Positions 10,693 through 53,929 of a DNA stretch of 64,000 bases are shown here, in pieces. The stretch covers positions 1 through 64,000 of the forward strand of contig JAAOMT010000334.1 of assembly GCA_016748015.1 (NCBI GenBank), in the 5' to 3' direction. The notes under the pieces are model-generated. The model was not told the DNA's origin. It made no database searches and worked only from the letters and a program-made list of their open reading frames with translations. This stretch comes from Geosiphon pyriformis. Its lineage: Eukaryota > Glomeromycota > Glomeromycetes > Archaeosporales > Geosiphonaceae. Position numbers and translations under genes: made by a program. The first letter of the stretch is position 1; the number at the start of each line of letters is the position of its first letter.

Positions 10693-12221
10693 ATGGTCCT
10701 ATTCACGGTTCGACATATAAAACAAGTGGTTCGTTTTGAACATGTTCTTTGGAATAGCGTCTTCCTTTTTGGTTTATTTAGTATTCTCTGTATTTGGGTG
10801 CTCTTTGCAAAGAAATGGAATGAAAATGACGTATATTTTAAAATTCTAGACTCAAATCTTCATAGACACAGAGAGTTTAATTTATTTTATGAGAGGATAG
10901 AAAATATTTCATTTCAGCATGCTAACTTGTACAGTAAAAGATATTTCCAATTGAATCAAAAAGATAACAAAAATAGAAATAATTTTGGAAAAAAGAGAAA
11001 CTCTAACTCTTTGGCAAATGAGGCTTTTATAGATTGGTTTAATCGTCAACCACCACGCTATATCCCAAAAATTTTACGACAGACTTCTTCACAAGAATGG
11101 ATTTTCTTGGCACAAATGGCTCGCTTAGCTAATACGGCGTATTGTTCGCGGAAAAATAATGTTGGCTCGGTCATGAAGGATCCTAAAATAAGAGGTAGAT
11201 AAAGAATTTTGATTTTCAGCAAGACTAATTTCCTTTAAATATTATAAAAAGAGAGTTGAAATATTGTAACTTGCTCTTTGATTTAAATGTAAAATTTTTA
11301 TTAATTCTATTTGATACCTTAAGCCCATGTTTTTGTCCCTCCATTTTCTAAGGACATTCTTGGCTATTTCAGAGGACAAACCTATACGCCAGAAGAATGG
11401 AGAAAGCGCAAGGTGCGATTAACACCTTTTGAATTTGGCCCTCTGATACCTAATCGTAAGCAAATAGCTTCTGTTGAAAAAAGTTGGAATGATGATGTGA
11501 ATGTAATGATGTCAGGCCTTCTTCAAAAAGTATTGCTTTTTTTGACTCCTGAGCAAAATAATATTATACTGATTGGTCATGGTGTCGGTGGAGGTAAAAG
11601 TTTTTTGTAATTCGAAATTGACCTTAGTAAGCGTTTTGATTGGTCGATCATTAGATTCCTAAAAACGATCCTTTGATTTTTCGTTAGTTTACGCAGTTCT
11701 AGCATTATTGGCTTTAAAAAAAATCTTTGCAAGTCAACATGGTTGGTTTGAGGAGGTAAAAATATCTGCAGTAACATTTGGGGAACCTCGTTTTGGTGCA
11801 ATCAATTTCGCTCGATACCTCGCTCAAACTGAATCCAAAATTTTCCGAGTCACCCACGCAAATGATTATGTGGTTCGTGAACAACTTTCTAAAACTGGCT
11901 TTCTAAAGTTTGAGCATCACCACAGCGAGTTTTGGATTACTTATGATTGTGAATGTTCAGAAGCTCTGGATCCTAACCGCCCATGGGTTAATTTCAATTT
12001 GTATGAGTGTCCTTCCTATGGAGATCATCCGGTAATTTATTTCTTGGAATAAAGTAAATATGTAGTATCATTCATTTTTTTTCCCGCTACTGACTATATT
12101 TTAGGATTGCAGTGCTAGTCAGATAGGAGATGATAAATCTTATATTGAAGCACATTTTGGTCCATATTTCGGGATCACAATGGGAGACTGCATTACAAAT
12201 ATGGGGGAACTTTTACATTAA
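10693..12221 (+). CDS. membrane-anchored class 3 lipase-like protein, Ser-to-Gly elbow
   Basis: Four exons join cleanly: 10693-11194, 11324-11593, 11697-12031 and 12105-12221, giving 407 aa. A hydrophobic segment near residues 20-37 (WNSVFLFGLFSILCIWVLF) suggests a signal anchor with the catalytic domain on the lumenal or outer side. The class 3 (fungal) lipase fold is shown by YFRGQT, the nucleophile elbow GHGVGG (252-257), TFGEPRFG (284-291), RVTHANDYV (308-316) and AHFGPYFG (385-392). Asp314 and His386 fit the family triad, but the position of the nucleophilic Ser is Gly254. Cysteines near DCECS and YECPS may form disulfides. Exon 2 was started at 11324 because that acceptor restores the phase and gives a G-A junction matching the paralogue at 53 kb. 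Two paralogues in this window share the same change, so it is probably not a sequencing error. Lipase activity is unlikely; a binding or regulatory role is inference. Confidence 0.85.
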
Positions 12222-15128
12222 AATTAAAATTTCTTGTAATTTAATATAGTCATGATATTATATAATTTAAATCATTTTGGTAGAGAACAAAGTTTCATCG
12301 AAATTTATTCTTTTTGAAGGTGAAAACTTTTAAACTATTTTTTTTATTGAATTTCAAGATCTTATAAGGAGGCAATTTTTTTATCGAATTTCAGTTAGAA
12401 AATGTTACAGTCAAATCGCTCTAATATCAACTTTGTGAGACCAAATGCTGTCGTTGATATATAAAGAGTTGGATTAAGATAGAGTTAAGGATATTTTAAT
12501 TGACTTTAAAGAATGATATAAATTTAAAGTATTAATGATTAATTAATATTACACAACTTTTATATAGAAAAAATAATTTATATACAATAAATAAATTCTT
12601 TAAAATACATTTAACATTTGAATTTTAAAAATTGATATTTTGAAAATATAATTTCTTTATATTTCAAATTATTATTGGAGTTCAAATTTTGATTAATTTT
12701 AAAGTTCAGAATGAAAAACAATTTAAATATTATTTCAGCTAAAATATCTTGGCAATGATTCGCAAACTAAAGTAAAAATCATAATTTGTATCAAAAATAT
12801 ATAAAGTTTACAGAGAAAATAACAAACAAAATTAATCTATATATATTCTCTCATCAAAACAACATTATTTCTTTTGTTTAAAATATATAAAAAATGGCTA
12901 AATCTCATCACTTTGTACATTTTAAACTGTATATTTACCACAAATAATTACAAATATTGCAATATTGTTTTTTCATAAATAAATAAAAGTTTGATATTTC
13001 TTATTATATTTATTACTATTGTAATTATCTAAAATCATTGTAATTATATAATACAGATTTGTTTTTTGTATTAAAGATGACCAATAAAATTTTATGAAAT
13101 AATAATACTAGATAAAAAAAATAAAAGTAAGCTTAATAATATTCAATATTATTTAAATAAAAAAATTTCATATTAAAATATATATAATAATTTAAATTAG
13201 ATTGATATCAATATTGATAAAAGATCATATATTAGTTTATTTGTATCAAAAAATTTATTATTAAAGAGGTTGATAATAAAGAAGTGTAACTGCATAAACA
13301 AATAAAAATTTTAATGAATTTTTTGATCTAGATGGTATTTTTATTTGCTAATCAATTTATTATTTTATGAATGATCTTTTAAAATCAATAGATTTTTGTT
13401 AGAATTAATAATCCAGGAAGCTTGGTTTTTTGAAATTATTTCAATTTCATTGTATAAGAAGTCATTAATCTCAAAATAAAGCTAGATTTATAAAAAGAAG
13501 TAAATAATTGATTCCATTCATGATCAAATATTCAAACCAAATTATTTTGACTTCAGGTATCTACTTAAATTCAAACCATTAAGCAAATTTCATTGATGTG
13601 TTGTAATTGAATTTCGAAACTTTTAATAATATTCAAGGCTGAATTCCAAAATACATATTGAATCTGTGAAAATATTATGGTTGGATTTATGGCCACATTA
13701 TGGAGAATTTATTATTGAGATTACGTTAAATAGTTGAACTGTCCAAAGATTTCAAATTTAATTTTTAAGAAAAAGGGTAGAATTTATTATTTGAACGAGT
13801 AAATCTATAATTCGTTGTGTATCGGAGGATTCGGGATATTTCTTACAATCAGGTAAATTATTTTTAGTATTTCCTTTTAATAGCACATAGAAAAAAATCG
13901 AACTTAGAACATTATCCAATTTTAGTTTTGTCCTGTTAGCCATAAAATTAATTGGCATGTATAATTATTCACAATACTAGAGATAAGGTAATCACAGTGA
14001 ATCTAGATTTTAACGATACAATACATCACCTCCTCAAGGGTTTCAAAAATTGCACTATAGAGCAAAAGTGAAAAATCCAAAAATTTTAATTCAAAAGATT
14101 AGGATGAGAAGAATAATTGTTTTGTCCAAGGGTTGGGAATAAAGTTTAAAACTAGCACAAAATGCAAAAAGAATATATACATTAAAAATTCGTAAATAAC
14201 AAACATACTTTCATTTTCATTGATCATCCTGTAAGAAACGTTAAAAATAGAAGGCTCATTTTTAAAAGTTTTTCATAATTATGGAGCTCTAAACCCTTTT
14301 CGTAGGTTATGCCTAAATAAATATCGTAAAGGAAGAGAAATGAACGAAATTCAATAGATTAGTCATCTCTTATGATCAAAAACTATTATCCATCTTTACT
14401 TATTTGCTAGATCGACGAAACATGCTTCCCCTTCAATTATTAGAGGAAAAATAGTTGTCTCCAAGAGCAATTTTCATCATGACAAATCTAGTTGATATCA
14501 CTTTTGGTGATCATTTTTCTGCCGATACGGAAACCTAAAGCTAATAAAATGAAAATCATCATCCAATTTCATAATACTTGTAAATCTGATCTTGGGAAGC
14601 CCGATTTTCAAACAAAAAGGTTCGGATTAAACAGGATATTTTGATAGAAAGGATATCCATAAATATGGTTAGCCTAAATTTACATGTTGGCGAATTTGTA
14701 TTTGATTTTCAAAAAGTTAATTGATTCTGCATAAAGTCACTCTGGGATTAAAATGCACGTTACTATAAGATTTTTCGTATGATTGGATCTTGATCTCAAT
14801 ATGTCAAAGAGGGTTTTGTTTTACTCATCGTCAGATTCTTCTCATCTATTCTATATTTAGAAAAATTTTAGACGGGAAAGCTGATGAGGTAATATTCGCA
14901 CGAAATCTTTGAAGCTATTTTCTAATTAAATAAACATTGGAAACATCTAATATCAATTAATGATAGTATATTTAAAACAATGTAGATAGACTTCCGAACT
15001 TTTATTGCTCCCTACATAAAACAAGGGTAGCGTTTTTCCAACAGAAATTGCCAGAGAAGCGTAATTTTCTCTATCTTTTGATTTCCTATTATTCACCGTT
15101 AAAAAGTACTTTATCTCATATAAAAAAA
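12222..15128. other. intergenic, no gene seen
   Basis: AT-rich sequence between the lipase-like gene and the nickel/cobalt transporter. A 66-codon minus-strand ORF at 13758-13958 has no recognisable family and no supporting exon, so it is not called. From about 14000 the sequence is less AT-rich and should include the transporter promoter. Confidence 0.5.
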
Positions 15129-16304
15129 ATGTCGAGATCAATTGTTGAAATAGAAAATGGACCGACAATTTATACGCCATTACTTCCAAAAGGTCTCACT
15201 CGTTTCAGCACATCTTCAAATGTGACTCGAAACATAATAGTACTTGTTTCTTCACTAGTTGTGTTGAACATCGCAGCATGGTTTGGAGCAGCGGTTGCAT
15301 TTCAAGATTATCCCTCGCTTATGGGTACCGCTGCATTAGCCTACACACTCGGTTTACGTCATGCAGTTGATGCAGACCATTTGGCAGCAATCGATAATGT
15401 CACTCGTAAATTACTTCACTCAGGAAAACAACCAATATCAGTCGGACTCTATTTTTCGCTCGGACACTCAACTATTGTTATCTGTACTTCTGCAGCAATT
15501 GCCGCTACAGCAACCGCAGTTAAGGATAAATTGGATGAGTTCCAAGCAATCGGTGGTTTAATAGGTGCAATAGTATCAGCAACGTTCTTATTTGTGATAG
15601 GAATCATGAATTTGATCGTGTTCATATCAGTATTCCGTTCTTTCAAAAGAATGAAACAAACCGGATCTTTTGAAGAAGAAAGTATCGATGAAATTATGAA
15701 TAATTCTGGAATGCTTGGTAGATTTTTTGCACCCATGTTTCGATTCATCGATTCAAGTTGGAAAATGTATCCGCTTGGAGTTTTGTTTGGATTCGGTTTT
15801 GACACGAGTACCGCAGTTGGCTTATTGGGAATTGCGGCGTTTCAAGCCAATCAAGGGTTACCCATTTGGCTAATCATGATTTTTCCTATGTTGTTTACCG
15901 CTGGAATGGCATTGATTGATACGGCTGATGGAATTTTAATGCTAGGAACTTATACCTGGGCATACATCAATCCTATTCGAAAACTTTATTACAATCTTGT
16001 CATCACTCTATTGTCGGTATTGGTTGCATTTATTGTTGGTGGAATCGAATTCTTGAATATTATTGGCGAAAAACTACAACTTGAGGGTCCATTTTGGGAT
16101 TTCTTTTCAGGATTAGGTAAAAATTTTGGGACCATTGGATATTTGATTATTGGGTTGTTTGTTGGCACTTTTCTCTTGGCGAAAATTTTCTATCAATTTT
16201 CCGGCCTTGAAGATTTGGAGCATAAGTTCGATACTCCTGTTGAGGAAGATACTACAAATACGCATAAAATATATGCTGAAACAGATGATGGGATATCGGG
16301 CTAG
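15129..16304 (+). CDS. nickel/cobalt transporter, NiCoT family
   Basis: A single uninterrupted ORF encodes 391 aa. It is a polytopic membrane protein expected to carry Ni2+ and/or Co2+ across the plasma or an organellar membrane. The NiCoT signature RHAVDADHLAAIDN lies at residues 77-90 (His78, Asp83, His84). It is followed by LGHSTIV near 111-117, GFGFDTSTAVGLLG near residue 220, and FTAGMALIDTADG further on, all diagnostic for the family. About eight hydrophobic segments are visible, with a long acidic loop (EEESIDEI) after the fourth and a hydrophilic C-terminus. The ATG at 15129 was chosen because the frame upstream has no ATG, only a TTG at 15048. Length matches fungal and bacterial NiCoT proteins. 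Unlike its intron-rich neighbours it has no intron, which may reflect horizontal or retroposed origin. Nickel supply to urease is a likely role but is not shown here. Confidence 0.95.
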   Translation: MSRSIVEIENGPTIYTPLLPKGLTRFSTSSNVTRNIIVLVSSLVVLNIAAWFGAAVAFQDYPSLMGTAALAYTLGLRHAVDADHLAAIDNVTRKLLHSGKQPISVGLYFSLGHSTIVICTSAAIAATATAVKDKLDEFQAIGGLIGAIVSATFLFVIGIMNLIVFISVFRSFKRMKQTGSFEEESIDEIMNNSGMLGRFFAPMFRFIDSSWKMYPLGVLFGFGFDTSTAVGLLGIAAFQANQGLPIWLIMIFPMLFTAGMALIDTADGILMLGTYTWAYINPIRKLYYNLVITLLSVLVAFIVGGIEFLNIIGEKLQLEGPFWDFFSGLGKNFGTIGYLIIGLFVGTFLLAKIFYQFSGLEDLEHKFDTPVEEDTTNTHKIYAETDDGISG

Positions 16305-18533: not shown

Positions 18534-20152
18534 TCAAGTTAAATATGGGACTTCATCATCATTCGGTGCCATAATATATCCAAAATATGGACCCCAATGT
18601 GCGCTCGATTCTTCAGGAATATTTCGAGAGAACCTATTAATGCAATCCTAAAAAAAAAGTATATTTTCGAAAATAGGAATAGGAAGTTCTATTCACTAAA
18701 AAATAAATCAGACACCTTACCGGATGTTCACCTTCAAATCGCATGCCCTGACACACATATACAGTCTCGGAAATCTTTTTTGGATCTATATCAACACAAT
18801 CACAGTTAGACTTTCGAGGAATCCAAAATTCCATCATCTCATGTGCATGATCTCTAAAAAATAATGGGACATAATCGTCCGCATAAGTTACACGCCAAAC
18901 CTCTAGCCTTTTGTTAACGAATCGGGCGAATGCTTGATTTCCAATACGTGGTTCGCCGAATGTTACCACGAAAATCCTTAAGCGTGGCTTCCTTATACGA
19001 AGAGCCAGAGCTGAAAACACGGCAAAAACTGTGGGGGTTGAAAAGGAGGTATTTAAGTTGATAATTCACTTTTTAAATAATTTCTTTGCATTTTAGAGCA
19101 TATTTATTTGATAATCTAGATAATTAAAATTTCTAAAAATATAAATACATACCAGCACCTTCACCATGCCCAGTAAAGGCAAAGAAATGTCTCTTATAAA
19201 TATTAGCAACCCAAAATCCTAAACTTTCTAAAATCTTTTCTTTCACTTTTGCAAACCTTTTATGATAAAATTCATTATTAACTAATAGTGGTTCATCCGA
19301 GATTCCATCTGGGTATAAAATTAATTCTCTTGTTTGGGCGAGGCTTAACATTGTAGCATGGTCCAATGAACGACCTCGAAACGTAACAATTATAAATGGT
19401 CTTGACATAAAGGCTGGTTTTAATGGGTCTTGAACCCCATCGATTATTCCTGAAAATAAAGTTTTCCTTTTTTTCAGAAAATTTCAAAGATCACAGGATT
19501 AAATCCGAAACTTTGATGCTTTTTTAATTTTAAACCCACCCCAAACCTCAGGCATAATTAGAGATCTTCTTCGATTTTCTCTATAAGGCAATTGTGCATA
19601 CCGTGCCATTTCCGACAAAAATTGAATTGAATCTTCATGCGTTAACAGATAAGTTTTTGGTTCTGCAGGCTTAAATATGAGGTTCGTGACACTATGCCAA
19701 TAACCAGCAATTAGTCGCCATCCTCTTTTAATTTTCCCGATTAAAGGATCTCTATTATTTTTTTCATTCATTCTTTTTGTGAAATGAGTTTTTTGAGAAG
19801 TGATATTGTTTTTGGAAAGTGTATGTAAGGACGAATTATAATCACTGGATAGAGTAATTACTCGTGTTGAGGATGATAAATGTGATTTGGCACCTGGATA
19901 GAATTCTTGGAGACTTATCAATGGCGAATAATTAGAGTAATTTTTTTTTGATTTGTTAATGAGATTTTCTGTCAATGATAGTAATCTGGACTCTGGTTGT
20001 GATTTAAAAAAATCTTGTGATAAGGTTGATGAAATTTTGATAATTAAGCAAATATATAATATGGTGGTCACGATTGCCAAAAAAAATTTTATAGTTTGGT
20101 TCTCAGAACTTCTAAATAAGTGTTGAAACTTTAATGAGAATATTTGACCCAT
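18534..20152 (-). CDS. membrane-anchored class 3 lipase-like protein, Ser-to-Gly elbow
   Basis: Four minus-strand exons (20152-19540, 19449-19153, 19028-18721, 18647-18534) join in frame to 443 aa. The ATG at 20152 (MGQIFSLKF) was preferred to the upstream TTG. A hydrophobic segment near residues 22-40 (FFLAIVTTILYICLIIKIS) is a probable signal anchor, followed by a long Ser/Lys-rich stem to about residue 150. Family features are IIVTFRGRSLDH, the elbow GHGEGA (298-303), VVTFGEPRIGN (324-334), RVTYADDYVP (349-358) and AHWGPYFG (422-429). Asp355 and His423 are in place, while Gly300 occupies the nucleophile position. The introns inside the elbow (phase 1) and after the EHP motif (phase 0) match the other two paralogues. 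It is likely a catalytically dead or altered alpha/beta hydrolase; ligand and partner are unknown. Confidence 0.85.
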
Positions 20153-22064: not shown

Positions 22065-22262
22065 TCACGTAAGATGAATGGGAAAAATGTAAGCAGGCTT
22101 CTGAAACAAATGCCAGAGTATCTTAAAAACAAACATTCGGTGGCTAAAATTGGCAATTTTCACATTCTTGTGACCAAGTTCTTTCGCTGTAATTATGCCA
22201 CCTTTTTGTAAATTTGTGAGATCTTTCGGGCAACCTATTTTTTGGTAAATTTCAAAAAGCAT
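22065..22262 (-). pseudogene. possible Tc1-type transposase N-terminal relic
   Basis: A 65-codon ATG-initiated ORF reads DLTNLQKGGIITAKELGHKN followed by VKIANFSH at about residues 14-41. This resembles the first helix-turn-helix of Tc1-like transposases, where a conserved 'LT..Q+G.I+..+.LG....IA' pattern is common. No catalytic DDE region follows within the next kilobase, so it would be a 5' fragment. Resemblance is by eye only and chance is not excluded. Confidence 0.3.
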
Positions 22263-34951: not shown

Positions 34952-36419
34952 GATTTTCAAGCAACACAGAAGGATTATCAAACTTTGAAGATTTTAGATG
35001 GTTAAGTAAAGATTTTTAAAGAGTTCGTCTTGCTAATAAATAAGGATTTCAACCCATTATTTTGTCAGGTCTCAAACGCTAGAATATGAAAATATATATG
35101 CTACTTCATAAAGGTTAGGCTCACTCATTTAAATTGCTTAAATGACAAAATGCTTTTCATTATCCTATTGTTATTGTTAGTTTAAATTAAACCTTAAAAT
35201 TGAGTTTCAATAGCTCATTAGCAAAATTTTTTTATTTGCATAATTTAGTTCTAAGGTTGCAGATAGCCCTTAAATATTGGTGATAACTTTAGTAACAAGT
35301 TTAATATAATTTCCTTGACCCTCGTTTGCATAAGCTCTGATTTAGAAACTGCTTTATAAATTTTATAAATAATTAACATGAAAAATCCTAAACCTCGATA
35401 TTCATTAAAACTTTTAAAGGTTAGATTTCATAATTTATATTACTTAAAGGGGATAATGATCGGAATCAAACTTAAAATGACTGCGAAGATGTGACTCAAA
35501 GTATTATGACTTTGGATTTATGGATATAAACATAAATTCCTTATTTGGTTTACCTGTATGCTATGTGTATCTTTCAAAAAATTTATTTTCTCTCTTACTG
35601 TTAATATTAAAAAAATAACCACTTCTCCATTTAACAAGAATTCTTAAAGTTTGAATGTCTTATTCTTCGAAAGTGTAAACTGTTACTAACTCAAAGAAGC
35701 TTTTGGGACATCAAAACAGGGTATGAATAAATTGTTTTTTACCAACAATTCATTCACAACTATTTTAATTCAATATGTGAAAACTTCTTAGCAAGGAAAT
35801 AATAAAGTATTCAGTAATAATCAAAAAGTATTGTATTTTTATTATTTATATAAAATTAAACTTTAGGCTTAATTTTTCTGTTAAAAAATTAAAAGTCTAT
35901 ATAAAGTTGTAGCCATTGCATGCTGCATTTTATTTTTGAGTAGTATATTAGAAAGTTATTTTCAAGAAGCCAACTAGGAAGGTCATCATTTAATTGTTAT
36001 CTTTGACATTTTGCTGTAATCAAATTTTCATGTATAAATCAATGGAAGCCTTCCCTTCTTTTTAAAATCCTTACTTTTCCTTTGCCATAAATCACTTGCT
36101 TTAATGAAATCACGATAATTTAAAGTGGATATTATCCCACAATTTTTAGAGTATTAATTATTAAATTTCAAATTACGGGTTGAAGACAACAATCCAAAAC
36201 TTTTCTACTTTTAATTACTAATAAATAAGGTTGATTTACATTAAGAATTAAGTTTAATTTTGTTTACCTTCTTGAGTCTGGGTGAATAATCAGGGAGTAA
36301 ATGTTCAAATACCTCTAATAATGTTAATCGAAGAAAATCTATAAAACTCCGAAACTACTAAATTTTTGAATACTAAGAACACTTTTTGATGAATTATTGT
36401 AGTTTTTGATTTGCCAAGT
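34952..36419. other. intergenic; second half belongs to the 2658-bp repeat
   Basis: No gene is supported. From 35538 onward the sequence is repeated at 38216, see the repeat entries. This is the 3' flank of the Argonaute gene. Confidence 0.5.
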
Positions 36420-38195
36420 TTACATGAACCACATAACCTGTTGAATTGTAAGATAATTTTTATTTAATTCAATCAGTAAAAAGCAATGAAACCAAACATA
36501 CCTTAGCAAGATCAGGCATGACGGTACCAAATGTTCCACTAAATGTTGGCTCTTCTTCTGAAGAAAAAGATGCTGCCTCGCTCGAGGATGAATGTTGAGT
36601 ATAATATCTGAATTAATCTTATTAGTTGAATATTTTAAAAATGAGCAAGCAGCCAAAGTCAAGAATTTATTTAAAATTTACCTGGCCCTCCTACAAAGCA
36701 AATGTGCATATCCAACTGGTGTGACCTAAATGGAATTGAACAAAATAGAATAGAATAACATGTTGAAGAAGATGGGAAACGAAATTTGGTTTTCAAAGTT
36801 TACCAAAGAAACTGCTCGCGTGCACCTGTGCGAAATAGTGTGAATAAAGAGTTTCTTTTGAGAAATTTGAAGAGCTTTGCAAAAAATGATCTGGAAAAAA
36901 AATTAAAGTATTCACTCACCTCGCAAATGTATATGTTAAATAATATGTCAAGGTTTGAAGGCTGATAATATTATGAAATTAAGATGTTGGAAAAGTTTTT
37001 ACACACAAAAGTTTGAAATATTTGAATATGTGAAAATATTCTACCTATCTGGATCGAATTCATTCTCGTCCCAAAGAACATGGTAATGCGTTGGACGACT
37101 CGTGCCTTGTAAACCGGCATGACTTTGAAGATCTATAAGAAAACGAGTAGAATCAGCTACTCAAAATCTTTCATACAACCGTTAGAGATAAACTTACAAA
37201 AGTCGAATTCGAAGGGATGGATAATCATAGTCTCGACAACAGTCCCAGGTAAACAATTTCCTGTTCGATCAGCATCCTTCCCAATGATAGGGAAAAACCG
37301 AGTGTGATGTCTCTTTTGCACGATAACAAATGTAATTGTCGGACGATAAGTTATATCCAAGGATTGGCAGGCTACTGGTAAATTAAAAAAAATACAATTG
37401 TTATTTTTCTGTAGGAATGATCTCTTGAAACCACATTTACTCAAAGAAATTACCTTTTATCGCCTTAATTTCACCTTCCATAATTTGAGCAAACTGGCCT
37501 TCTGATACACCGTCACGATAAAATAAAATTCTTTCGGGCTTTCGGCCACAAGTCTGGTAAAAATTTTTCAATAATTCTCTGACCATATCTGCAAGATCAG
37601 AAATAATATCACTTTTCGCAGTTTGGCAGCGAATGGAAGCAGCGTAACGCGAGGCTTTGGCATCCATAGTTGCGCAAAGAGTAGCGATTGATGGACTTGC
37701 CGGGTTATCTATCAAGTTTTATTTTTGAAGTTAGTTGAAAGAAAGTGAAGCATTTTTTTCATTTCCGAACATTAAAGCTTACTTGGGTTAGAATGAGTGA
37801 CATCTGCTCCCATGACAATTGTCGGTCTATCGCTAATGAATGGAATATCATTCGATCCCAAAAACCAATTCATTCCACCGAGCTTCACATTCATTTTTAA
37901 ACCGACGTTGCCACAATACTGCTTTTTTGCCTGCATCATATGTCGCGCTTGTATACATTGGGTGGCTATCCCGATTACAGTATCGCTTACTCGTTTTATC
38001 TCTGCGTAAAGCTGCTCTCCAGTATTTGGCAGAACACAAATAATTAATTGTGGTTGAGCATTAGCAGCAGTCCCAGCACGAAGCCATGCCTGTTTAAGAA
38101 TCGCATCAATATTTCCTTGAGGATTAGCGTGCAAGATCGGAGGGGCCTTATTTGGTATATTCAAGCCAATTTCTATGGCGGTAATAACAAATTCC
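35538..38195. repeat. 2658-bp direct repeat, left copy, abutting an N gap
   Basis: Apparently identical, base for base in every line I compared, to 38216-40873 at an offset of 2678. It ends exactly at the gap. The five ORF pairs I compared carry identical translations. See the finding on an unmerged contig overlap. Confidence 0.95.
36420..38195 (-). pseudogene. partial second copy of the Argonaute 3' half
   Basis: It holds Argonaute exons 15 to 8 and about two thirds of exon 7, then stops at the N gap, so exons 1-6 are absent. All visible sequence equals the corresponding part of the complete gene at 39098-42778. It has no promoter or start of its own. The best explanation is an assembly overlap and not a real gene; if it were a true tandem duplicate it would be a 5'-truncated copy. 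Confidence 0.85.
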
Positions 38196-38215
38196 NNNNN
38201 NNNNNNNNNNNNNNN
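38196..38215. other. assembly gap of 20 N
   Basis: Twenty N bases. A round, fixed-size gap marks a scaffold join of unmeasured size. Confidence 0.99.
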
Positions 38216-40873
38216 TCCTTATTTGGTTTACCTGTATGCTATGTGTATCTTTCAAAAAATTTATTTTCTCTCTTACTGTTAATATTAAAAAAATAACCAC
38301 TTCTCCATTTAACAAGAATTCTTAAAGTTTGAATGTCTTATTCTTCGAAAGTGTAAACTGTTACTAACTCAAAGAAGCTTTTGGGACATCAAAACAGGGT
38401 ATGAATAAATTGTTTTTTACCAACAATTCATTCACAACTATTTTAATTCAATATGTGAAAACTTCTTAGCAAGGAAATAATAAAGTATTCAGTAATAATC
38501 AAAAAGTATTGTATTTTTATTATTTATATAAAATTAAACTTTAGGCTTAATTTTTCTGTTAAAAAATTAAAAGTCTATATAAAGTTGTAGCCATTGCATG
38601 CTGCATTTTATTTTTGAGTAGTATATTAGAAAGTTATTTTCAAGAAGCCAACTAGGAAGGTCATCATTTAATTGTTATCTTTGACATTTTGCTGTAATCA
38701 AATTTTCATGTATAAATCAATGGAAGCCTTCCCTTCTTTTTAAAATCCTTACTTTTCCTTTGCCATAAATCACTTGCTTTAATGAAATCACGATAATTTA
38801 AAGTGGATATTATCCCACAATTTTTAGAGTATTAATTATTAAATTTCAAATTACGGGTTGAAGACAACAATCCAAAACTTTTCTACTTTTAATTACTAAT
38901 AAATAAGGTTGATTTACATTAAGAATTAAGTTTAATTTTGTTTACCTTCTTGAGTCTGGGTGAATAATCAGGGAGTAAATGTTCAAATACCTCTAATAAT
39001 GTTAATCGAAGAAAATCTATAAAACTCCGAAACTACTAAATTTTTGAATACTAAGAACACTTTTTGATGAATTATTGTAGTTTTTGATTTGCCAAGTTTA
39101 CATGAACCACATAACCTGTTGAATTGTAAGATAATTTTTATTTAATTCAATCAGTAAAAAGCAATGAAACCAAACATACCTTAGCAAGATCAGGCATGAC
39201 GGTACCAAATGTTCCACTAAATGTTGGCTCTTCTTCTGAAGAAAAAGATGCTGCCTCGCTCGAGGATGAATGTTGAGTATAATATCTGAATTAATCTTAT
39301 TAGTTGAATATTTTAAAAATGAGCAAGCAGCCAAAGTCAAGAATTTATTTAAAATTTACCTGGCCCTCCTACAAAGCAAATGTGCATATCCAACTGGTGT
39401 GACCTAAATGGAATTGAACAAAATAGAATAGAATAACATGTTGAAGAAGATGGGAAACGAAATTTGGTTTTCAAAGTTTACCAAAGAAACTGCTCGCGTG
39501 CACCTGTGCGAAATAGTGTGAATAAAGAGTTTCTTTTGAGAAATTTGAAGAGCTTTGCAAAAAATGATCTGGAAAAAAAATTAAAGTATTCACTCACCTC
39601 GCAAATGTATATGTTAAATAATATGTCAAGGTTTGAAGGCTGATAATATTATGAAATTAAGATGTTGGAAAAGTTTTTACACACAAAAGTTTGAAATATT
39701 TGAATATGTGAAAATATTCTACCTATCTGGATCGAATTCATTCTCGTCCCAAAGAACATGGTAATGCGTTGGACGACTCGTGCCTTGTAAACCGGCATGA
39801 CTTTGAAGATCTATAAGAAAACGAGTAGAATCAGCTACTCAAAATCTTTCATACAACCGTTAGAGATAAACTTACAAAAGTCGAATTCGAAGGGATGGAT
39901 AATCATAGTCTCGACAACAGTCCCAGGTAAACAATTTCCTGTTCGATCAGCATCCTTCCCAATGATAGGGAAAAACCGAGTGTGATGTCTCTTTTGCACG
40001 ATAACAAATGTAATTGTCGGACGATAAGTTATATCCAAGGATTGGCAGGCTACTGGTAAATTAAAAAAAATACAATTGTTATTTTTCTGTAGGAATGATC
40101 TCTTGAAACCACATTTACTCAAAGAAATTACCTTTTATCGCCTTAATTTCACCTTCCATAATTTGAGCAAACTGGCCTTCTGATACACCGTCACGATAAA
40201 ATAAAATTCTTTCGGGCTTTCGGCCACAAGTCTGGTAAAAATTTTTCAATAATTCTCTGACCATATCTGCAAGATCAGAAATAATATCACTTTTCGCAGT
40301 TTGGCAGCGAATGGAAGCAGCGTAACGCGAGGCTTTGGCATCCATAGTTGCGCAAAGAGTAGCGATTGATGGACTTGCCGGGTTATCTATCAAGTTTTAT
40401 TTTTGAAGTTAGTTGAAAGAAAGTGAAGCATTTTTTTCATTTCCGAACATTAAAGCTTACTTGGGTTAGAATGAGTGACATCTGCTCCCATGACAATTGT
40501 CGGTCTATCGCTAATGAATGGAATATCATTCGATCCCAAAAACCAATTCATTCCACCGAGCTTCACATTCATTTTTAAACCGACGTTGCCACAATACTGC
40601 TTTTTTGCCTGCATCATATGTCGCGCTTGTATACATTGGGTGGCTATCCCGATTACAGTATCGCTTACTCGTTTTATCTCTGCGTAAAGCTGCTCTCCAG
40701 TATTTGGCAGAACACAAATAATTAATTGTGGTTGAGCATTAGCAGCAGTCCCAGCACGAAGCCATGCCTGTTTAAGAATCGCATCAATATTTCCTTGAGG
40801 ATTAGCGTGCAAGATCGGAGGGGCCTTATTTGGTATATTCAAGCCAATTTCTATGGCGGTAATAACAAATTCC
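38216..40873. repeat. 2658-bp direct repeat, right copy
   Basis: It begins immediately after the N gap and matches 35538-38195. After 40873 the sequence continues uninterrupted into the 5' half of the Argonaute gene, whereas the left copy ends at the gap. Confidence 0.95.
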
Positions 40874-43860: not shown

Positions 43861-43869
43861 AATTACTAA

Positions 43870-45464: not shown

Positions 45465-45791
45465 TCATCCTACCATTTGAAAATAACTCGATTCATGATA
45501 ATTGAAAGTTTCTTGATTAGAAGAAAGGGATTGAAATTTTTTAGTTACTTGCTCAAGTTCTTTCAATTTTTCTTCAATGCGATTGAGACTTCCTTGTAAA
45601 CTTCTCGTATGTTCCGTATATTTTTGACAAGAGTTGCAAAAATAATTTTCAGTATTGATTGGTTTGTTTATTTTAACTATAGAGCATTGGTCATTAGAAA
45701 TTCGAAATTTATGGTTATAACCTGAGTTGGACCTAGTAAAGTATGGATTTATTTTATGACTTTGAATTAAGGTTGATTTACAAGAAGGCAT
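45465..45791 (-). CDS. hypothetical small coiled-coil protein, 108 aa
   Basis: A single-exon ORF from the ATG at 45791 (MPSCKST). Upstream in frame lies a run of AAC codons that would add poly-Asn but begins at a TTG, so it is treated as 5' UTR. The basic N-terminal half contains INPYFTRS; a CNSCQKYTEH motif follows. A charged helix likely to form a coiled coil (SLNRIEEKLKELEQVTKKFQ) lies near residues 70-90. I do not recognise a family. Two downstream-oriented neighbours on the same strand (47746-48174 and 48817-49272) have the same plan of basic N-terminus, coiled coil and acidic C-terminus, which suggests a diverged tandem family. Function unknown. Confidence 0.5.
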   Translation of the reverse strand: MPSCKSTLIQSHKINPYFTRSNSGYNHKFRISNDQCSIVKINKPINTENYFCNSCQKYTEHTRSLQGSLNRIEEKLKELEQVTKKFQSLSSNQETFNYHESSYFQMVG

Positions 45792-46223
45792 ATTGTTGTT
45801 GTTGTTGTTGTTGTTCAAGCTTAAAAGTTTTGAGATGAAAGGTATTTTATACTTTTGAAATAGAAATTACTTCTTTTAATATGAAAAATATTATGACGAA
45901 GAAAATTTTGAATTTTGAATCACTTTTTTTATACTTTTGAAAAAAACTTTGACCTTTTTCCTCTGGATTTTAAAGTCCTTTATAGAATTCAGAATATTCA
46001 AAAAATAGACAAAAGAGTAATGTACGGAGAAAACGGAGAATAGATTATCAGGTAAACACGGGATATCAAAACCGATTTTTAGATTAATTGTATCAATGAA
46101 AGAATCAATCTTGAAAGAGTTTCATAAAAAAAAAAAATGACATAGTGATTAATTTATTCGGACTTTGTTTAAGAAATAAAGTTATTAAATAAATGTATTC
46201 ATGAAATTATTTAAATTTTTTTA

Positions 46224-46224
<1 letters not shown>

Positions 46225-46271
<47 letters not shown>
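46225..46271. repeat. (ATA)n microsatellite
   Basis: About fifteen ATA/TAA units. Confidence 0.95.
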
Positions 46272-46272
<1 letters not shown>

Positions 46273-47745
46273 TCAAATTTTATTTAATTTACAACAGCAT
46301 TGAAAAACTTCAATAATCAGAAGATTCTTATCGAGTTTTTCTTTTCTCAAAATATTATTGTAATAAAAATTATTCATTGTTTCTTCTTTTTTGAGTGTAA
46401 AATTTTGTGAAAATTTGGGTTAAATGATTTCACAAATCTTTTGTTAAAAGAAATAATTTCGATCTGAAAATGAAAATTTCCGGAGACAATTGTCCATGAC
46501 GTGTGATTCTTAAAATTATTAGACAAATATTTAAATTCTTTTGTTGCATATAGAACTTCTTTTTTTTTTAGGAGGATAAAGAGCTTATAATCAATGGGAA
46601 GATACTTGTCTAGGATCACTATCAGAATTTATTATAATAGCAAAATAAATAATAAAGAGGTGATTATTTAAAAATCTTTGCTATTGTTTCCGTAGCATTT
46701 GATCCCCTTTTTAATGCAGTGTATAAAGCTGTAATAAAATAAATAATAATATGATAATTTTATTTTCCCCTTAAATGATTTGAAAATGGATAAATCGTTC
46801 GAAAAAAAAATTATTGTACATTTTAAAAAGATAAAATAATAAGATTTTTAACCATAGCTCTCAACTTTTATGAAAACACACTCAATAGAATCTATTTACT
46901 TAAAGAACACAAGTCCTCTAGATTTCTTATAATCGGACAAGAATGATGTCATATCACTCAGAAAATTTTCTCAGCAGCTTTCAAACGCACACCGCTTATG
47001 TTAATGATTTTATAAATTCTCGAGATATTTTTATTTAAAGAGAATTTTAGTAACCATATTAAAATAATAATTTTGACAGTGACCACTTACTACTATTCTA
47101 TAAAATGGTAACTCCTATTCAAACCATTACTAATTTTAGCAATTAATTTATTTAATAACAATTATATTATTGCAAATTCAAAAAAATTTAAATATATATT
47201 AATAGCTTTTATATTAAAAGGTTAGAACATAAAAAAGAATTTTATAGTAAAAGAAGTAATATATTGTGATCAAGAAATTTTGTGAAGAATTATACTTTAA
47301 AGAATATAATATTTTAAAAAAAATTTATTGTTAAAATGATTTTAAATGCCAATTTTGAAAAATTTCATTATTAATTCGTCTTCAATTAATTAATTGAAGC
47401 TGAAGCTAAAATCCAAAATTAATAGAGTAAAAAACTTTTTAAAAGTATATATATTATTATTATTATTATTATTAACTATTTTTCTACTCACTTTTCGAAA
47501 TCTTGTTCACATCAATTTTCATAATTTACATGTTTTAATAAATTTTTAGATTTAAATTTTTTCCTATATAGGTTTCATATCTTTCAAAGAAATTTTAACT
47601 TCTTGTTTCTTTTTTTACAATTTGGCTATAAAATTTTACCCATTACAACTATAGTAGTAGTAGAAATTAGAGAACTCTTTCTAAAATTAATATTAAATTA
47701 TAATGTTTGTTCTTAATTATAAAGTTTTAAACTTAATTTTTTAAC
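46272..47745. other. intergenic between small coiled-coil genes
   Basis: AT-rich sequence with a short (TTA)n run near 47453-47473. An 81-codon minus-strand ORF at 46374-46619 lacks an ATG at its start and has no recognisable family, so it is not called. Confidence 0.45.
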
Positions 47746-48174
47746 TTAATTTTGAAATTTTATGCTTCCAAGATCCTCTGTCATTTTTAACAGTTCATCT
47801 GTGGTTAAATGGTTAAAATCTAGTTCTTCAATTAAAAACTGACCACCATTCTTTGGAACGTTCGTATTAGATATTTCTATTATATTATTAAGTTTTTTTT
47901 GGGCTTCTTGAATTCGAAGTTGCATCTCGTCGATTATTTCTTCAGGTATATCTTCTTCTTTTTCTTCTTCTTCTTCTTCTTTTTCATCCTCATATACACA
48001 AGGATAACGTTCATTTATATAAGGATTTAATCGTTGAAAATTTGATTTAGGCATTTGATTTTTACGAGCCGTAAATGTTTGTTGATTATTATTATTATTA
48101 TTATTGGAGTTAATTGGTGATGCATTTCGTCTTTTAATCGAGAAAAATATTTTGATTGATTTAATTGGAGCCAT
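47746..48174 (-). CDS. hypothetical small coiled-coil protein, 142 aa
   Basis: A single-exon ORF with an ATG start. The N-terminus is basic (MAPIKSIKIFFSIKRR) and followed by an Asn run encoded by ATT/AAT-type repeats. NFQRLNPYINERYP follows, a Glu-rich stretch lies near residues 64-80 (EDEKEEEEEEKEED), then a helix (IIDEMQLRIQEAQKKLNNII) and the C-terminal motif HLTTDELLKMTEDLG. The last motif resembles DISIDELLKLS of the neighbour at 48817-49272, and NPYINER resembles NPYFTRS of the one at 45465-45791. No known domain is recognised. The codon pattern and the shared motifs support a real gene. Function unknown. Confidence 0.6.
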   Translation of the reverse strand: MAPIKSIKIFFSIKRRNASPINSNNNNNNNQQTFTARKNQMPKSNFQRLNPYINERYPCVYEDEKEEEEEEKEEDIPEEIIDEMQLRIQEAQKKLNNIIEISNTNVPKNGGQFLIEELDFNHLTTDELLKMTEDLGSIKFQN

Positions 48175-48816
48175 TGGTGATTATTGATTTACTTTCAAAT
48201 CTAAAGAAATTGATAGCTTTGAACTTTTGATATATTTATATATTTTTTTTTCCTATTAGTGTATATTAATAATAATTGGGATAAAAATAGGATCTCGGTT
48301 ATTATTATATCATCTGCAAAGATACGTTATACAAAGCTATTATTAAAAACTTTAGATTTACTACTAACGGAGATTGTCTAAATATAGATATATTTTTTTT
48401 AATTTTAGTGTGTGTTTCACGCTAGGTTTCTCCTAAAGAACTTTTATTCTAATTTTCATATCACTTTTTTTTAAAAGTAATTTATTATGAGCCGTCGTAT
48501 CAAAAAAGTAACAGAATTTTAGATTCCAATATCTTTTCCCCAAGTATTAAACAACTTTAGCCAATTTTTTATTTCCCAGTTTATTTTCATAAAATATAAT
48601 TTTTTATTATAAAATTCAAATTAATAAGATTACTCTATAATCGATTGCAATCCTCATAAATCTTAAAAGCTTAATATTTGATAAATAATCAAAAATTTTT
48701 TTTCATAAGAAAAGATCAATATACAGTCTATATATAGCCTGATTCTATGATATTTGAACGTATTTGAACTTAAAAGAAAGAAAGAAAGAAAGAAAGAAAG
48801 AAAAAATGTGTAGTTT
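48175..48816. other. intergenic; (AAAG)n run
   Basis: A short AT-rich spacer upstream of the 142-aa gene, with an (AAAG)n microsatellite at 48773-48803, just 3' of the next gene. Confidence 0.6.
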
Positions 48817-49272
48817 CTAAAGGGAATGAAAATCTTGGAAAAATGTTGGCATTTGTAATGATTCTAGCTTATAATCTTGATTATCCTTCTTATCAAGTTT
48901 ACCATATTCAATGTTTATTGATAGCTTTAATAATTCATCTATGCTAATATCTGATAAATTGACTTCTTTATTGGTAATTGGATCATTATTTACAAAACAT
49001 TGTAAATTCTTTGTCGAAAGCTCCGTCAAATAATTTAATTTTTGTTCAATCTTGTTAAAACCTTTCTCTAATGTGTTTATATATTGTTTGAACTCATCGT
49101 AATCACAGCAAATTTCCTCATTTTTTTTGACTTCTTTATTAAGTGAATCACGCTTAGAACGATAATTATCGCCTCTTACTTTAAAGATATGCTTCCGTCC
49201 AGTCATATCAAATAAAGTTGAATTGAGGGATTTCCGTGGAGTTTGCGATAGGACTGAGCTCACAGGTGGCAT
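48817..49272 (-). CDS. hypothetical small coiled-coil protein, 151 aa
   Basis: A single-exon ORF from ATG 49272. The N-terminus is Ser/Thr- and Arg-rich (MPPVSSVLSQTPRKSLNST), followed by a basic region (RKHIFKVRGDNYRSKRD). A helical, probably coiled-coil segment spans about residues 58-90 (TLEKGFNKIEQKLNYLTELS), and the C-terminal part contains EVNLSDISIDELLKLS. The helix resembles SLNRIEEKLKELEQVTK of the 108-aa neighbour and the last motif resembles that of the 142-aa neighbour. Unknown family; see the tandem-paralogue finding. Confidence 0.6.
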   Translation of the reverse strand: MPPVSSVLSQTPRKSLNSTLFDMTGRKHIFKVRGDNYRSKRDSLNKEVKKNEEICCDYDEFKQYINTLEKGFNKIEQKLNYLTELSTKNLQCFVNNDPITNKEVNLSDISIDELLKLSINIEYGKLDKKDNQDYKLESLQMPTFFQDFHSL

Positions 49273-49969
49273 TTCGTTTTAATTTAAAAAAAAATTTTTG
49301 GTGAACTTTTAAGAGTAGAATAATAGTAAACAGCTTTAGAATTATTTGTATATATATATATATATATATCAACTTTACACTGCGAAAGTTGAAAAAATTT
49401 CTCGCTCTATATATATAGAAAATAATAATAATAATAATACTTGGCTAGATATTCATAATCGCCAATTGTTTCCCGAAATTAATCATTTTCCTTGGCATAA
49501 AAATTATGAATTATCTTATTTTTTTCAATAAAATATAAAACAATATGTAATAGAACTCAAATATTTTGCCATGCAACGTCAATACTGCAATAGAAAATTT
49601 AATAATAGCTAATATTCTAAAAAAAAAATTTTTTTTTATTCTTCGGATTAGAAAATGGCTTTTTTTTTTCACTTGAGAGATAAAAAAGGGCCATTTGTAT
49701 TAGACTTATGATTAATTTCCTTTCCATCCAAATTTAATTAATAAGCTTTTATTAATACTCAATATGATACTTTTTTCTAAAATTCCAAAAAATCTTGTTT
49801 AAAAAAAAGATCTTTTTAAAAAACTAGTCTTGATTCAAAAAAGAAAATGTCCAAAGAACTTCTCAATACAATTATGAAATAATAAAAACTTGAAATTTAA
49901 TTAAAATCTTAAAAGAGTAATTAATATTTTAAAAATTAGAATAAACAAATTACGCATTTATAAATTGAA

Positions 49970-50000
<31 letters not shown>

Positions 50001-51565
50001 AAACCAATGGCAAAGACACTTTTAAACAAAAAATTATTGATTTATAGAATAAAGAATATATATATATATATGTGTGTGTTTCGATTTTTTTTAATTCCAA
50101 AATAAATTGAAAAGTTTTTCGTTGACTTGGTCAAAATGCTTAAAAGTCTGACTTTTTCACAGAGAAAAATTGACTGTACTTCAGAAACCGGAGAAGTATG
50201 TCAAATTGCAAGTAGAATTATCTAAAATTAACAAAGACTTTATCTATCACTTATTATAATTCTTCTTTTAAACGCTAAAGAAATCAAAATTTTGCTTATA
50301 TTTCAATAAAGAAGGTGAATGGATTATTTAAAATGTCTCTGTAGTTTCTAAAAACTTTATGGCCATAGCTATCGGAGAACTGATTGTTTCATGCGACGAC
50401 ACAGTATTTTTTGTAGAGTGTTAACTAAAAACAGGGTTTGAATAATATTATGTTCAAAAAATATCTAAACTAAAAAATATTTCTAAAGGTTTTTTAAACG
50501 AAAGAATAAGGCTCTTATTTCGTGTAATCCGCTTTATAGAATTTTAAATGAAACTCTTTTCTTCAAAATAATCAGCCATCTTGAAGTTATGAAATGTATT
50601 TTTTTTTTTTCGTTTGAAATTTATGTATTCAAAGAGATTTCTAAATGATCAGTGTACATTAGAGAAAAAGCGTATATTTTGATAAGTGCACATTTAGAGA
50701 ATAAGAATATATTTAATCAATAATGTTAAATTATAAGTCCGTCTCTTGATGTCCGTAACTCGTTAAACTGATGTAGTCAACAAAATAATAGAGTTAAAAA
50801 AAGATGATCTTATATTACAATCTTTTAAAAAGAACAATGGCTTTGGTTTCTTAAATAATGTTGTGCAATTTTTTCGGACTATTATGGATTTTGTTTGAAT
50901 CTTCAATAATCCAAAAATTGATTCTAAAACACTTAATATTCGTAAAGAAAAATATTACATGAACAGAAAGATTTATTAAAAAAAACTTTTACTTTGTTAA
51001 TTATATCAATATGACAAGATAACTTAATATTTAAAATATTAAAAGAAAGATTTTTATCTATTGAACATACTATAAACAAATTTAGGTTATTTTTTACCAT
51101 TTATAAAGTACTGGAAAAGTTAATTTACATAATTTTTTATAATGACTCTCGAAATAAAATGGCAAAATAGAGAATAAATTTGAATCTCGAAATTTAAAAT
51201 TGATCTTTTACAGATAATTGTAATTTATTGACTTTCTCGAACAAAATATTATCAGTTATCTCTTATAATAAGTATATTTTCAAAGATATTTTTTAAGATC
51301 ATAATTAATTAATTGAATTATTCTCAAAATGTGCAAAGTTTAAACTGTCAAAGAAAAATATCTATATTTAAATGAAAGATAGTTGTTTAAAATAAAACAA
51401 AGATCTTCAATAATCATTTTATTTGCTTTGTAGAGCGCAAACTAAAAATTTTTACACTTATGAAATTATAGCAAAAGAATTCCAATTTTACACAATATAA
51501 AGATCCTATGAAACTAAAAGACTGGCATTTTGGGTCAGAAAAAAAAAGACTAAACAACCAAAAAA

Positions 51566-51639
<74 letters not shown>

Positions 51640-52446
51640 CATCATCATTATTACCAAAAATTTCAACAAAATAATAAAATGGAATCCAAATATTTTTTCA
51701 TATTACAAAAATAAAACTTAAAATAAAAAATAAACTCATATTTAATAATTTCAAGAGATTTTGTAATCAAAAAAAAATATAAAAACAGTTTTAAAAACAT
51801 CTTTTAATATTAATAAATAATTAAAAGAAAAAACAGATAAAATAAACACCAAAAATATATATTAAATTTTTAATAATCTGATTTGTAATTAATGGAAACA
51901 AAAAAGTGATTTTAATAAAACAATAATTTAAAACATAAAAATAATATTTATTAAAGAATTTTTAGGAATAATAAAGAGAAATTTAGTTAATTCAATAAAA
52001 TATGAATGTGAATTAAGTATTGTAAATAATGGGAAATATATATATATATTATGAAATTTTCTTTAATAAATTTATTCTTTAATAATTCCCAGATAATAAT
52101 TAATTATTCAAAGACTAAATTATTTTCAAAAGATTGTAAACAATTATTAATTGCGTAATTGAAATCAGTCTTTTTATTGTATTGGTAATATTTTATCCCA
52201 ACTTTATAAACACTTTATTATTAACGTAAAATCAAAATGATATTATAGATCAAATATTTAGAACCTATTAATGCTCAATATACTTAAAATAAGATAAGGA
52301 AGCTTTTAAATGACAAGACTTGTAAAATTTGTTACCTTGAAAGTAAATCATCTTAAAAAAGTTATTTGGAAAAATAAGTTATTAAGAATTTCAATTAGAT
52401 TATATTGTGCTTTACTAATATTTTGCGTTGAAAAGTTCTTTTTGGA
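49273..52446. other. AT-rich gene-free region with microsatellites
   Basis: About 3.2 kb without a supported gene. It includes (TA)n near 49349-49369, poly-T at 49970-49996, (TA)n/(TG)n near 50055-50078, and a long (TTA)n tract at 51567-51639. The Tyr-rich ORF at 51508-51714 is simply that microsatellite. Confidence 0.65.
51567..51639. repeat. (TTA)n microsatellite, 73 bp
   Basis: About 24 uninterrupted TTA units, then a few ATC units. Confidence 0.95.
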
Positions 52447-53929
52447 TCAAAACTTACCACAATAACCCATTATGATCCCGAAATATGGACCAAAGTGATT
52501 AATTGTACTTGAGTCTGTAATTGATTGTCCAGAATTACATTCCTAAAATTATTTTCCATATAAATGTAATAATAATAATAATAATATAAGGTTTAATTAC
52601 CCTCATAAAAAATTTAAAAAAAAGGACAATTTATTTTCTGCACTAACCGTATTTTCTATAGCTTGATCATTACCAGGAATCCAAAACTTTTCCTGAATAA
52701 ATTCTTGCACTCTAATTAACTTTTTTTCTTCATTTTCTTTGAATCGTCCACAATCCCATATAATTTCATTAGAAAATATTGTATTTTGAGAGCAATCACA
52801 ATCATTTGGTCCAATCCATATTTCACTTTCATGATGTTTCATTATTGAGTTCTCATTTTCAATTGGAGGAAAATGTGGGAAGTAATCATTTTGATGAGTT
52901 ATTCTTGTGACCTTTACTAGTTCATTCATCATTCTAGCAAACATTATATTTCCAGTTCTTGGTTGACCAAAAGTAAGAATTGAAATTTCAATTGATTCGT
53001 TTAACAGATGGATTGGTGATATAAATACGCGTAAAAGATTCATTATTGCGTATGATAGGCCTGCTATCGCGGCATAAGCTGGGTTTTTTTTTCCGATTTA
53101 AAAAGAAAAGAGACTTAGAATTAGCAAAATAAATATATAATACTCTAACTCTTCATTATTTGAACTAACCACCACCAACACCATGTCCACAGAAAATTAT
53201 CTTTTTATATCCCGTACGCATAAACAGAAAATTCATTTTGTTTAAAATAGGTCTCATCATAATTGAAACATCAATAAACCATTCTTGATCCACTTTTACT
53301 AGTTCGTTTTTCTTCATTCCTTCCGTACTAAATGTTACAAGCTGGTTTTTTCTATCTTGCCACTGTGTTTTTGTGAAATGGGGACCTTTAAAGAATGCAA
53401 TGATTGATTTTTCATTTTTTTCCACTATCATATCAGCTATTAAATTCGTATAAACAAGTAGACAGTGAAAAAATTTTAAACGAGGTTACTTTATTTCAAA
53501 AAATTCCTGAAATTAAAATTGATTGAAAAATAGTTAATTTCACAAAATACCCTTGATTTTGGTCCCTTGTTTTACCCGTTCCCCAATTTGATTGTAAGGT
53601 AAGCAATAAGGAATATTAGAAGACTCAGCTATCAATTTTAATCGTTGGTATTCCTGGGAGCTGTTAAAGCTTAATACTCTTTTCTTTGGGTAGCCTTCTT
53701 CATTATTATCAACTGATCTTTTAAAAAAAAATTTAATGCTATCATTTTCAAATGATTTCACTGAAAGTGAAAATTGAGGGATTTCTTGAATTTCATTATA
53801 AATTTTTTGATTTCTATTAGTTAAAATATGCTGTGAAAAAGAATATATGTATTCTAAAGAGTTGAAATAATAAAATATTTTCGTTAGAAAAATAATTTTA
53901 AATATGAATATCAAAAAGAGCTGTTGCAT
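52447..53929 (-). CDS. membrane-anchored class 3 lipase-like protein, Ser-to-Gly elbow
   Basis: Four exons (53929-53551, 53436-53170, 53078-52648, 52542-52447) join in frame to 390 aa. The N-terminus (MQQLFLIFIFKIIFL) is hydrophobic, a signal peptide or signal anchor. Class 3 lipase motifs are IIAFFKGPHFTKTQW, the elbow GHGVGG (210-215), ILTFGQPRTGN (249-259), RITHQNDYFPHFPP (274-287) and NHFGPYFG (374-381). Asp280 and His375 match the triad, but Gly212 replaces the nucleophilic Ser. DCDCSQN and WDCGRF preserve the cysteine pattern of the other two copies. It has an insertion of about 25 residues (ENEEKKLIRVQEFIQEKFW) before the last intron. The ATG TGT GGT AAG TTT TGA end could hide a further GTAAGT donor, so the C-terminus is provisional. 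Confidence 0.8.

Follow-up and report, generated by a model that had tools for sequence, protein, structure and literature searches.

Lipase-fold genes in the window

The window, that is, the whole 64,000-nucleotide stretch of DNA analysed here, has a G+C content of 28% and contains Argonaute and Sel1 genes together with three intact genes, of four exons each, for class 3 lipase-fold proteins. These are referred to as genes A, B and C, and their features are as follows.

10693 to 12221, plus strand: gene A, lipase-fold protein with elbow GHGVGG (sequence, spliced model, Pfam)
11195-11323, 11594-11687 and 12032-12104, plus strand: introns of gene A (spliced model)
11575 to 11592, plus strand: gene A elbow G-H-G-V-G-G, Gly codon 11581-11583
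18534 to 20152, minus strand: gene B, lipase-fold protein with elbow GHGEGA (sequence, spliced model, Pfam)
19401-19511 (placement uncertain), 19029-19152 and 18648-18720, minus strand: introns of gene B (spliced model)
19154 to 19171, minus strand: gene B elbow G-H-G-E-G-A, Gly codon 19165-19163
52447 to 53929, minus strand: gene C, lipase-fold protein with elbow GHGVGG (sequence, spliced model, Pfam)
53437-53550, 53079-53169 and last 52543-52710 (donor uncertain), minus strand: introns of gene C (spliced model)
53171 to 53188, minus strand: gene C elbow G-H-G-V-G-G, Gly codon 53182-53180

A previous sequence-only reading of this DNA had reported Gly elbows in three membrane-anchored lipase genes. 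The elbows GHGVGG, GHGEGA and GHGVGG were found at the genes named, the ATG and stop positions fit the sequence, and the Asp and His motifs were recovered in all three (ANDYV and HFGPYFG in gene A, ADDYV and HWGPYFG in gene B, QNDYF and HFGPYFG in gene C). The N-terminal hydrophobic segments were likewise confirmed, with 19-residue Kyte-Doolittle maxima of 2.19, 2.38 and 2.08. For gene C, the residue number given for Asp (280) was reproduced, whereas His falls at 348 in the re-made model rather than at 375 because the last intron was placed differently. In each gene, a phase-1 GT-AG intron directly follows the elbow.

Family membership was assigned from Pfam Lipase_3 (PF01764), which matched gene A at E 3.8e-14, gene B at 1.3e-16 (from a model with a different first-intron placement) and gene C at 8.6e-17; the three genes scored 53.2, 61.2 and 61.8 bits against a curated cut-off of 22. 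Gene C was also matched to 1dt3, which we take to be the Thermomyces lipase, at E 1.6e-6; in this alignment the elbow of gene C coincides with the catalytic one. Active class 3 lipases have Ser in the elbow (GHSxG), the triad Asp and His, and an oxyanion motif FRG[ST]. In genes A, B and C the elbow residue is Gly, the Asp and His are both present, and the oxyanion motif reads FRGQ, FRGR and FKGP, which places Pro at the oxyanion position of gene C. The earlier description of a loss of only the nucleophile is thus too narrow, as all three genes have in addition lost the oxyanion S/T, for which they have Q, R and P.

Several other features of the window were recorded. A long ORF at 14976-16304, between genes A and B, matches a NicO-type nickel transporter (PF03824, E 2e-93). 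In the Argonaute gene region, with Piwi, Mid and PAZ matches nearby, the 2,658-base block at 35538-38195 is repeated exactly at 38216-40873 across a gap of 20 N (38196-38215), and this repeat is probably an assembly artefact. Dispersed copies with pieces 87-89% identical occupy 1234-2347 and 61385-63538, and probably represent a repeated or duplicated gene. Small open frames were seen on the minus strand at 45465-45866, 47746-48180 and 48817-49278, two of them with Asn runs; the frame at 48817-49278 gave no Pfam match.

Size of the family in the genome

The Pfam scan of the same genome (124.7 Mb, 406 contigs) returned at least 163 exon-level Lipase_3 matches, a lower bound because 150 of the 748 candidates were scored. 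At the DNA level, the pattern GHGxG[GA] followed by G was found at 317 places (142 forward, 175 reverse), compared with 9 for the reversed-pattern control. The corresponding pattern with a Ser-like codon in the elbow was found at 61 places, compared with 16 for its reversed control, and these were counted by eye as 54 Ser, 5 Cys and 2 Arg. To score loci as genes, a spliced profile aligner was written and applied to genes A, B and C together with 112 loci fetched from the genome. Members of the family numbered 102 of these 115, and since L052 duplicates L009, 101 distinct models were retained; the non-members or fragments left out were L006, L020, L036, L039, L054, L061, L063-L067, L073 and L077. 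Loci L061, L066, L074 and L077 look partial or frame-broken.

The elbow residue in the 101 distinct models is Gly in 53, Ser in 42 and another residue in 6. When Gly-pattern loci were taken in contig order (L021-L050), 28 of 30 proved to be members with spliced models. Chance can be excluded as the source of the Gly elbow, because 317 places stand against 9 in the control and 28 of the 30 loci score as family members. Of the 54 Ser-codon places, 50 were examined and 42 were members, the frame-broken L074 counted in. Extrapolation gives approximately 296 copies with the Gly elbow and 42 to 46 with the Ser elbow, so that the "three copies" of the sequence-only reading greatly understated a family with some 300 Gly copies. 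Loci picked by Pfam score and not by elbow (L001-L020) contained 18 members in 20, of which 10 have Gly, 6 Ser, 1 Cys and 1 Ala. Other elbow residues observed were Cys (2), Ala (1) and Arg (2), among L003, L070, L011, L095 and L106; the two Cys-elbow members keep Asp and His and are possible thiol-esterase candidates.

Contig C252 carries 13 Gly and 2 Ser pattern matches within 64 kb, and contig C330 carries 13 Gly and 3 Ser matches within 123 kb. Judged from such pattern matches, part of which were checked as genes, many elbows appear to sit in tandem arrays. For Glomeromycotina, a 2025 paper puts the average number of lipases, all types counted, at 189 (PMC12574304). That mean is smaller than the copy number of this one family, which differences in annotation rules or between species could explain.

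Anatomy shared by Gly and Ser copies

Three intron positions, with their phases, are common to all three groups into which the main body of the family was divided: canonical copies (n=7, named by Ser plus FRGT, and found to form one clade), other-Ser copies (35) and Gly copies (53). The elbow intron is present in 100 of the 101 models. Since introns lie at the same positions and phases, the copies are deduced to be DNA-level duplicates of one gene.

The triad Asp was found in 53/53 Gly copies, 34/35 other-Ser copies and 7/7 canonical copies, and the His in 47/53 (the remainder being 4 Asn and 2 Phe), 28/35 and 7/7, respectively; the dyad has therefore decayed no further in Gly than in other-Ser copies. 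The oxyanion Ser/Thr has a very different distribution, being present in 7/7 canonical copies (a group defined by it), 1/35 other-Ser copies and 2/53 Gly copies. Pro occupies this position in 28 of the 49 Gly copies with a letter there (4 further models are gapped), in 6/35 other-Ser copies and in 0/7 canonical copies. The motif FRG[ST] is found in the canonical copies and in the R. miehei lipase. The complete hydrolytic set of Ser, Asp, His and oxyanion Ser/Thr was present in only 8 of 101 models (canonical 7/7, other-Ser 1/35, Gly 0/53, other 0/6), seven of them in one clade near the Rhizomucor miehei lipase. On viral contigs, 17 Lipase_3-like loci, some near-identical, were retrieved with a pattern that permitted Gly, and all 17 have an elbow Ser and FRG[ST].

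The stretch that follows the oxyanion residue is the lid position in known lipases. Its mean hydropathy over 15 residues was -1.04 in Gly copies, -0.91 in other-Ser copies, 0.17 in canonical copies and 0.63 in the R. miehei lipase. The putative lid segment is thus more polar on average than in the canonical copies, that of gene B only mildly so. An N-terminal hydrophobic stretch was found in 35/35 Gly, 15/16 other-Ser and 5/5 canonical copies with readable first exons (6 further Gly first exons were unreadable, and loci numbered L081 and higher, being too short, were excluded). This segment is family-wide and no mark of Gly copies, and it probably serves for secretory entry, as a predicted signal peptide or type II anchor.

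The sequence-only reading had also offered catalysis by another residue, and a substitute nucleophile was sought in the 20 columns with one polar residue in at least 80% of Gly copies. The suggestion received no positive support, as the CxC pair (51/51 each) was the only one to be invariant among Gly copies and missing from every canonical copy. By group, the CxC pair is present in 51/53 Gly, 21/35 other-Ser and 0/7 canonical copies. Weaker column differences were a Thr (Gly 53/53, canonical 4/7, other-Ser 29/35), an Asn (43/53, 0/7 and 17/35) and an N-terminal Lys (41/49, 0/2 and 18/27). Six cysteine columns and the Asp are nearly invariant in Gly copies.

These data bear on the main rival to a binding function, namely that the Gly elbow and the Asp-His dyad form a working site in which a His-activated water or substrate hydroxyl would bring about slow hydrolysis, transacylation or a lyase reaction. 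The Asp and His are kept nearly everywhere, more than a dead enzyme needs, which leaves room for another chemistry, and Gly copies have retained them at least as well as other-Ser copies have. Variation within clades is also low in the elbow and Asp stretches: in the clade of gene C, extra residues per site were 0.47 for the elbow and 0.67-0.87 for the Asp stretch against a clade mean of 1.47, with the lid stretch about average (1.27-1.40) and some outer stretches reaching 3.13. Such low variation is equally expected of a conserved fold core. Against this chemistry stand the lost oxyanion residue, with Pro in more than half of the Gly copies that have a letter there, the absence of any Gly-invariant polar residue missing from canonical copies other than the CxC pair, and the persistence of two or more Gly lineages in which His has given way to Asn (4) or Phe (2). 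We consider this explanation unlikely.

Order of loss and regain of the elbow serine

The changes of Gly label needed on the trees numbered 10 for 70 proteins and 15 for 101 proteins, of which at least 8 and at least 10, respectively, were forced by well-supported branches. For the order of events, a tree of 98 rows was used, consisting of 97 members (five rows left out) and the R. miehei lipase as root. The canonical Ser clade lies near the root. Along the spine, nodes with a Gly posterior of 0.01-0.04 have an oxyanion-lost posterior of 0.87-1.0, several of the spine branches being weakly supported (31 to 86). Gly first becomes the inferred state at the basal nodes of a clade of 73 rows (0.90, then 0.99). 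Loss of the oxyanion Ser/Thr thus seems to have preceded the change of the elbow from Ser to Gly. The 73-row clade holds genes A, B and C, whose common ancestor most likely had Gly (posterior 0.99); the three genes do not represent parallel losses.

Changes in the opposite direction are seen in several observations. Seven Ser tips have a Gly parent; L051, L053, L057, L096 and L099 have an oxyanion Pro, and the other two have Lys (L100) and Glu (L111). The clade containing genes A and C includes five nested Ser copies, all with an oxyanion Pro, and in the 101-row tree a mostly-Ser clade (14 Ser in 19 rows) is nested within the Gly clade. In the elbow 19-mer, a single base separates the Ser copy L051 from the neighbouring Gly copies L041-L044, AGT versus GGT. 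A model with regain gave lnL -42.1, compared with -59.0 without regain (17 log units worse); the sample is strongly Ser-biased, which inflates the regain rate, so that the rates are untrustworthy and only the existence of two-way changes stands. A single origin of Gly without reversal was rejected (AU p 3e-70; rooted quick tree, 50 Gly versus 43 Ser rows). On these trees, Ser was regained in places inside Gly clades.

The regained Ser raises the question of a mixed family, in which Ser-regained copies would be active esterases and Gly copies their regulators or decoys. The single-base difference of L051 from its Gly neighbours and the preference of the model for regain are in keeping with such an arrangement. 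It is opposed by the oxyanion Pro in 5 of the 7 Ser tips with a Gly parent, the other two having Lys and Glu, and by the strong Ser bias of locus sampling behind the inflated regain rate, and it was judged very improbable.

Selection

Selection was assessed in 19 non-overlapping gene pairs with a pairwise maximum-likelihood codon script. Omega was below 1 with neutrality rejected in 14 of 19 pairs (uncorrected 5% level). Among Gly-Gly pairs, neutrality was rejected in 9 of 12, with omega 0.16-0.62, and in 7 of 12 after correction for 19 tests. The claim of selection made for the window genes was upheld by gene C with L024 (omega 0.357) and gene B with L027 (omega 0.252), both of which reject 1; gene A has no omega because its best partner is only 37 to 39% identical. 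In the 5 pairs where neutrality was not rejected, omega was 0.68 to 2.5, and four of the five most alike pairs are included here. The L007/L008 pair had saturated dS, and the Gly/Ser pair L037/L096 gave omega 0.46 or 0.88 by two counting methods. Most pairs show purifying selection, and the youngest do not. The five near-neutral pairs together with L037/L096 suggest that constraint may be weak in some of the copies.

Neutral birth and death would account for the family as over-duplicated copies that have no selected role, Gly being simply a tolerated elbow residue. This is compatible with the very high copy number in tandem arrays, the 5 of 19 pairs that do not reject neutrality, the broken or partial loci, and an elbow that holds Ser, Cys, Ala and Arg as well as Gly. 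It is difficult to reconcile with the spliced family models obtained from 28 of 30 Gly-pattern loci with shared splice sites, with omega of 0.16-0.62 in the Gly-Gly pairs that reject neutrality, or with the near invariance of the Asp and six cysteine columns in Gly copies. Neutral birth and death was accordingly considered quite unlikely.

Proposed function

The most probable explanation, and one we hold with some confidence, is a large, tandemly duplicating lipase-fold family in which hydrolysis was lost in steps and the pocket was kept for binding. The best reading of the sequences is of a predicted secreted or membrane-anchored, non-hydrolytic family. The general interpretation of the sequence-only reading survives to this extent, in that hydrolysis was probably lost with the fold kept under selection.

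The steps themselves can be read from the sequences and the tree. Replacement of the oxyanion Ser/Thr came first, in many copies by Pro, a residue that lacks a backbone N-H, and the putative lid segment grew more polar on average. The elbow Ser changed to Gly later, in the ancestor of most copies, and Ser, Cys, Ala or Arg came back at the elbow site afterwards in a scatter of copies. Retained throughout were the core of the fold, four long-standing cysteines and a CxC pair, as well as the Asp and, in most copies, the His. The pocket is probably still in use, for binding instead of cutting. Gly may be favoured in the elbow because it is the residue that best tolerates the strained backbone turn at this site. 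The Asp-His pair may have been retained as a pocket floor or for ligand contact. The likeliest task, proposed with less assurance, would lie at the surface or in the secretory pathway, where these proteins would capture, recognise or present lipid-like ligands or protein partners.

The setting was examined through fatty acid synthesis. Since PF17951 matched no genome searched, PF08354 was taken as the marker of type I fatty acid synthase (FAS); it gave no candidate in this genome, and a Corynebacterium control was positive. The absence of a match to this domain suggests that the fungus may have to import lipids. Together with the low G+C content and the Argonaute and Sel1 genes of the window, it would agree with a member of the Glomeromycotina. 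Loss of the single FAS gene in Glomeromycotina is stated in one paper (PMC10234402). A more far-reaching and tentative proposal, which we regard as possible but doubtful, is that a lipid-auxotrophic symbiont turned one secreted lipase into approximately 300 diversified surface or secreted non-hydrolytic binders for lipid capture or self/partner recognition. The oxyanion hole would have been lost first and the nucleophile second, and the residue at the nucleophile site, no longer of importance for chemistry, could now alternate freely among Gly, Ser, Cys and Ala.

To our knowledge, pseudoenzyme families of such size are rare. One genome here holds the complete lipase, Ser copies that have lost the oxyanion residue, Gly copies and regained Ser, which makes the order of enzyme death and reuse directly testable. 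If the fungus is arbuscular mycorrhizal and dependent on plant lipid, a repertoire of non-cutting lipase folds would bear on lipid uptake or sensing. In genomes of this kind, the capacity for hydrolysis may be far smaller than a domain-based count of "lipases" implies. Within the titles, abstract openings and passages covered by the literature search, with subscription papers and preprints outside it, no description of this family or of Ser-less lipases was found.

Comparison with known systems

The closest known relatives are the class 3 lipases (PF01764), represented by 1dt3 and by 1tgl, presumably the Rhizomucor miehei lipase, to which the canonical copy L004 was matched at E 6.1e-40. The fold at the sequence level, the place of the elbow, the G-x-PR-x-G motif, the Asp and His motifs and the outer cysteines are the same. 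The present family differs in its Gly nucleophile, the loss of the oxyanion Ser/Thr, a lid segment that is polar on average, the extra CxC, and a long N-terminal region with a hydrophobic segment.

Plant EDS1, PAD4 and SAG101 use a Lipase-3 fold for signalling and not for hydrolysis, and the EDS1 family is defined by an EP domain after the lipase domain. No EP domain was detected in genes A, B and C by the Pfam scan at E<=1, and the proteins end soon after the His motif. The present family further differs in its N-terminal hydrophobic segment and its hundreds of copies, with no further domain detected after the lipase domain. The EDS1 parallel is therefore loose, and an EDS1-like signalling role for the window genes is a guess.

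Neuroligins have Gly in place of the catalytic Ser; they occur in few copies and belong to another hydrolase family, in both of which they differ from the proteins described here. PF00135, which we take to be the family of the neuroligin and type-B carboxylesterase fold, gave no match in the Pfam scan of the window genes. According to PMC12931606, neuroligins are membrane-bound proteins of a hydrolase fold that lack the catalytic Ser and work by binding; their type I anchor is a further difference. The resemblance is one of working only, that is, binding by a Ser-less hydrolase fold. The same paper describes the CEST proteins of C. elegans, which, like the present family, are a many-member hydrolase-fold family in a single genome, some of the members being membrane proteins (PMC12931606). 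They differ in that most CESTs retain the Ser-His-Glu triad and the oxyanion motif (PMC12931606).
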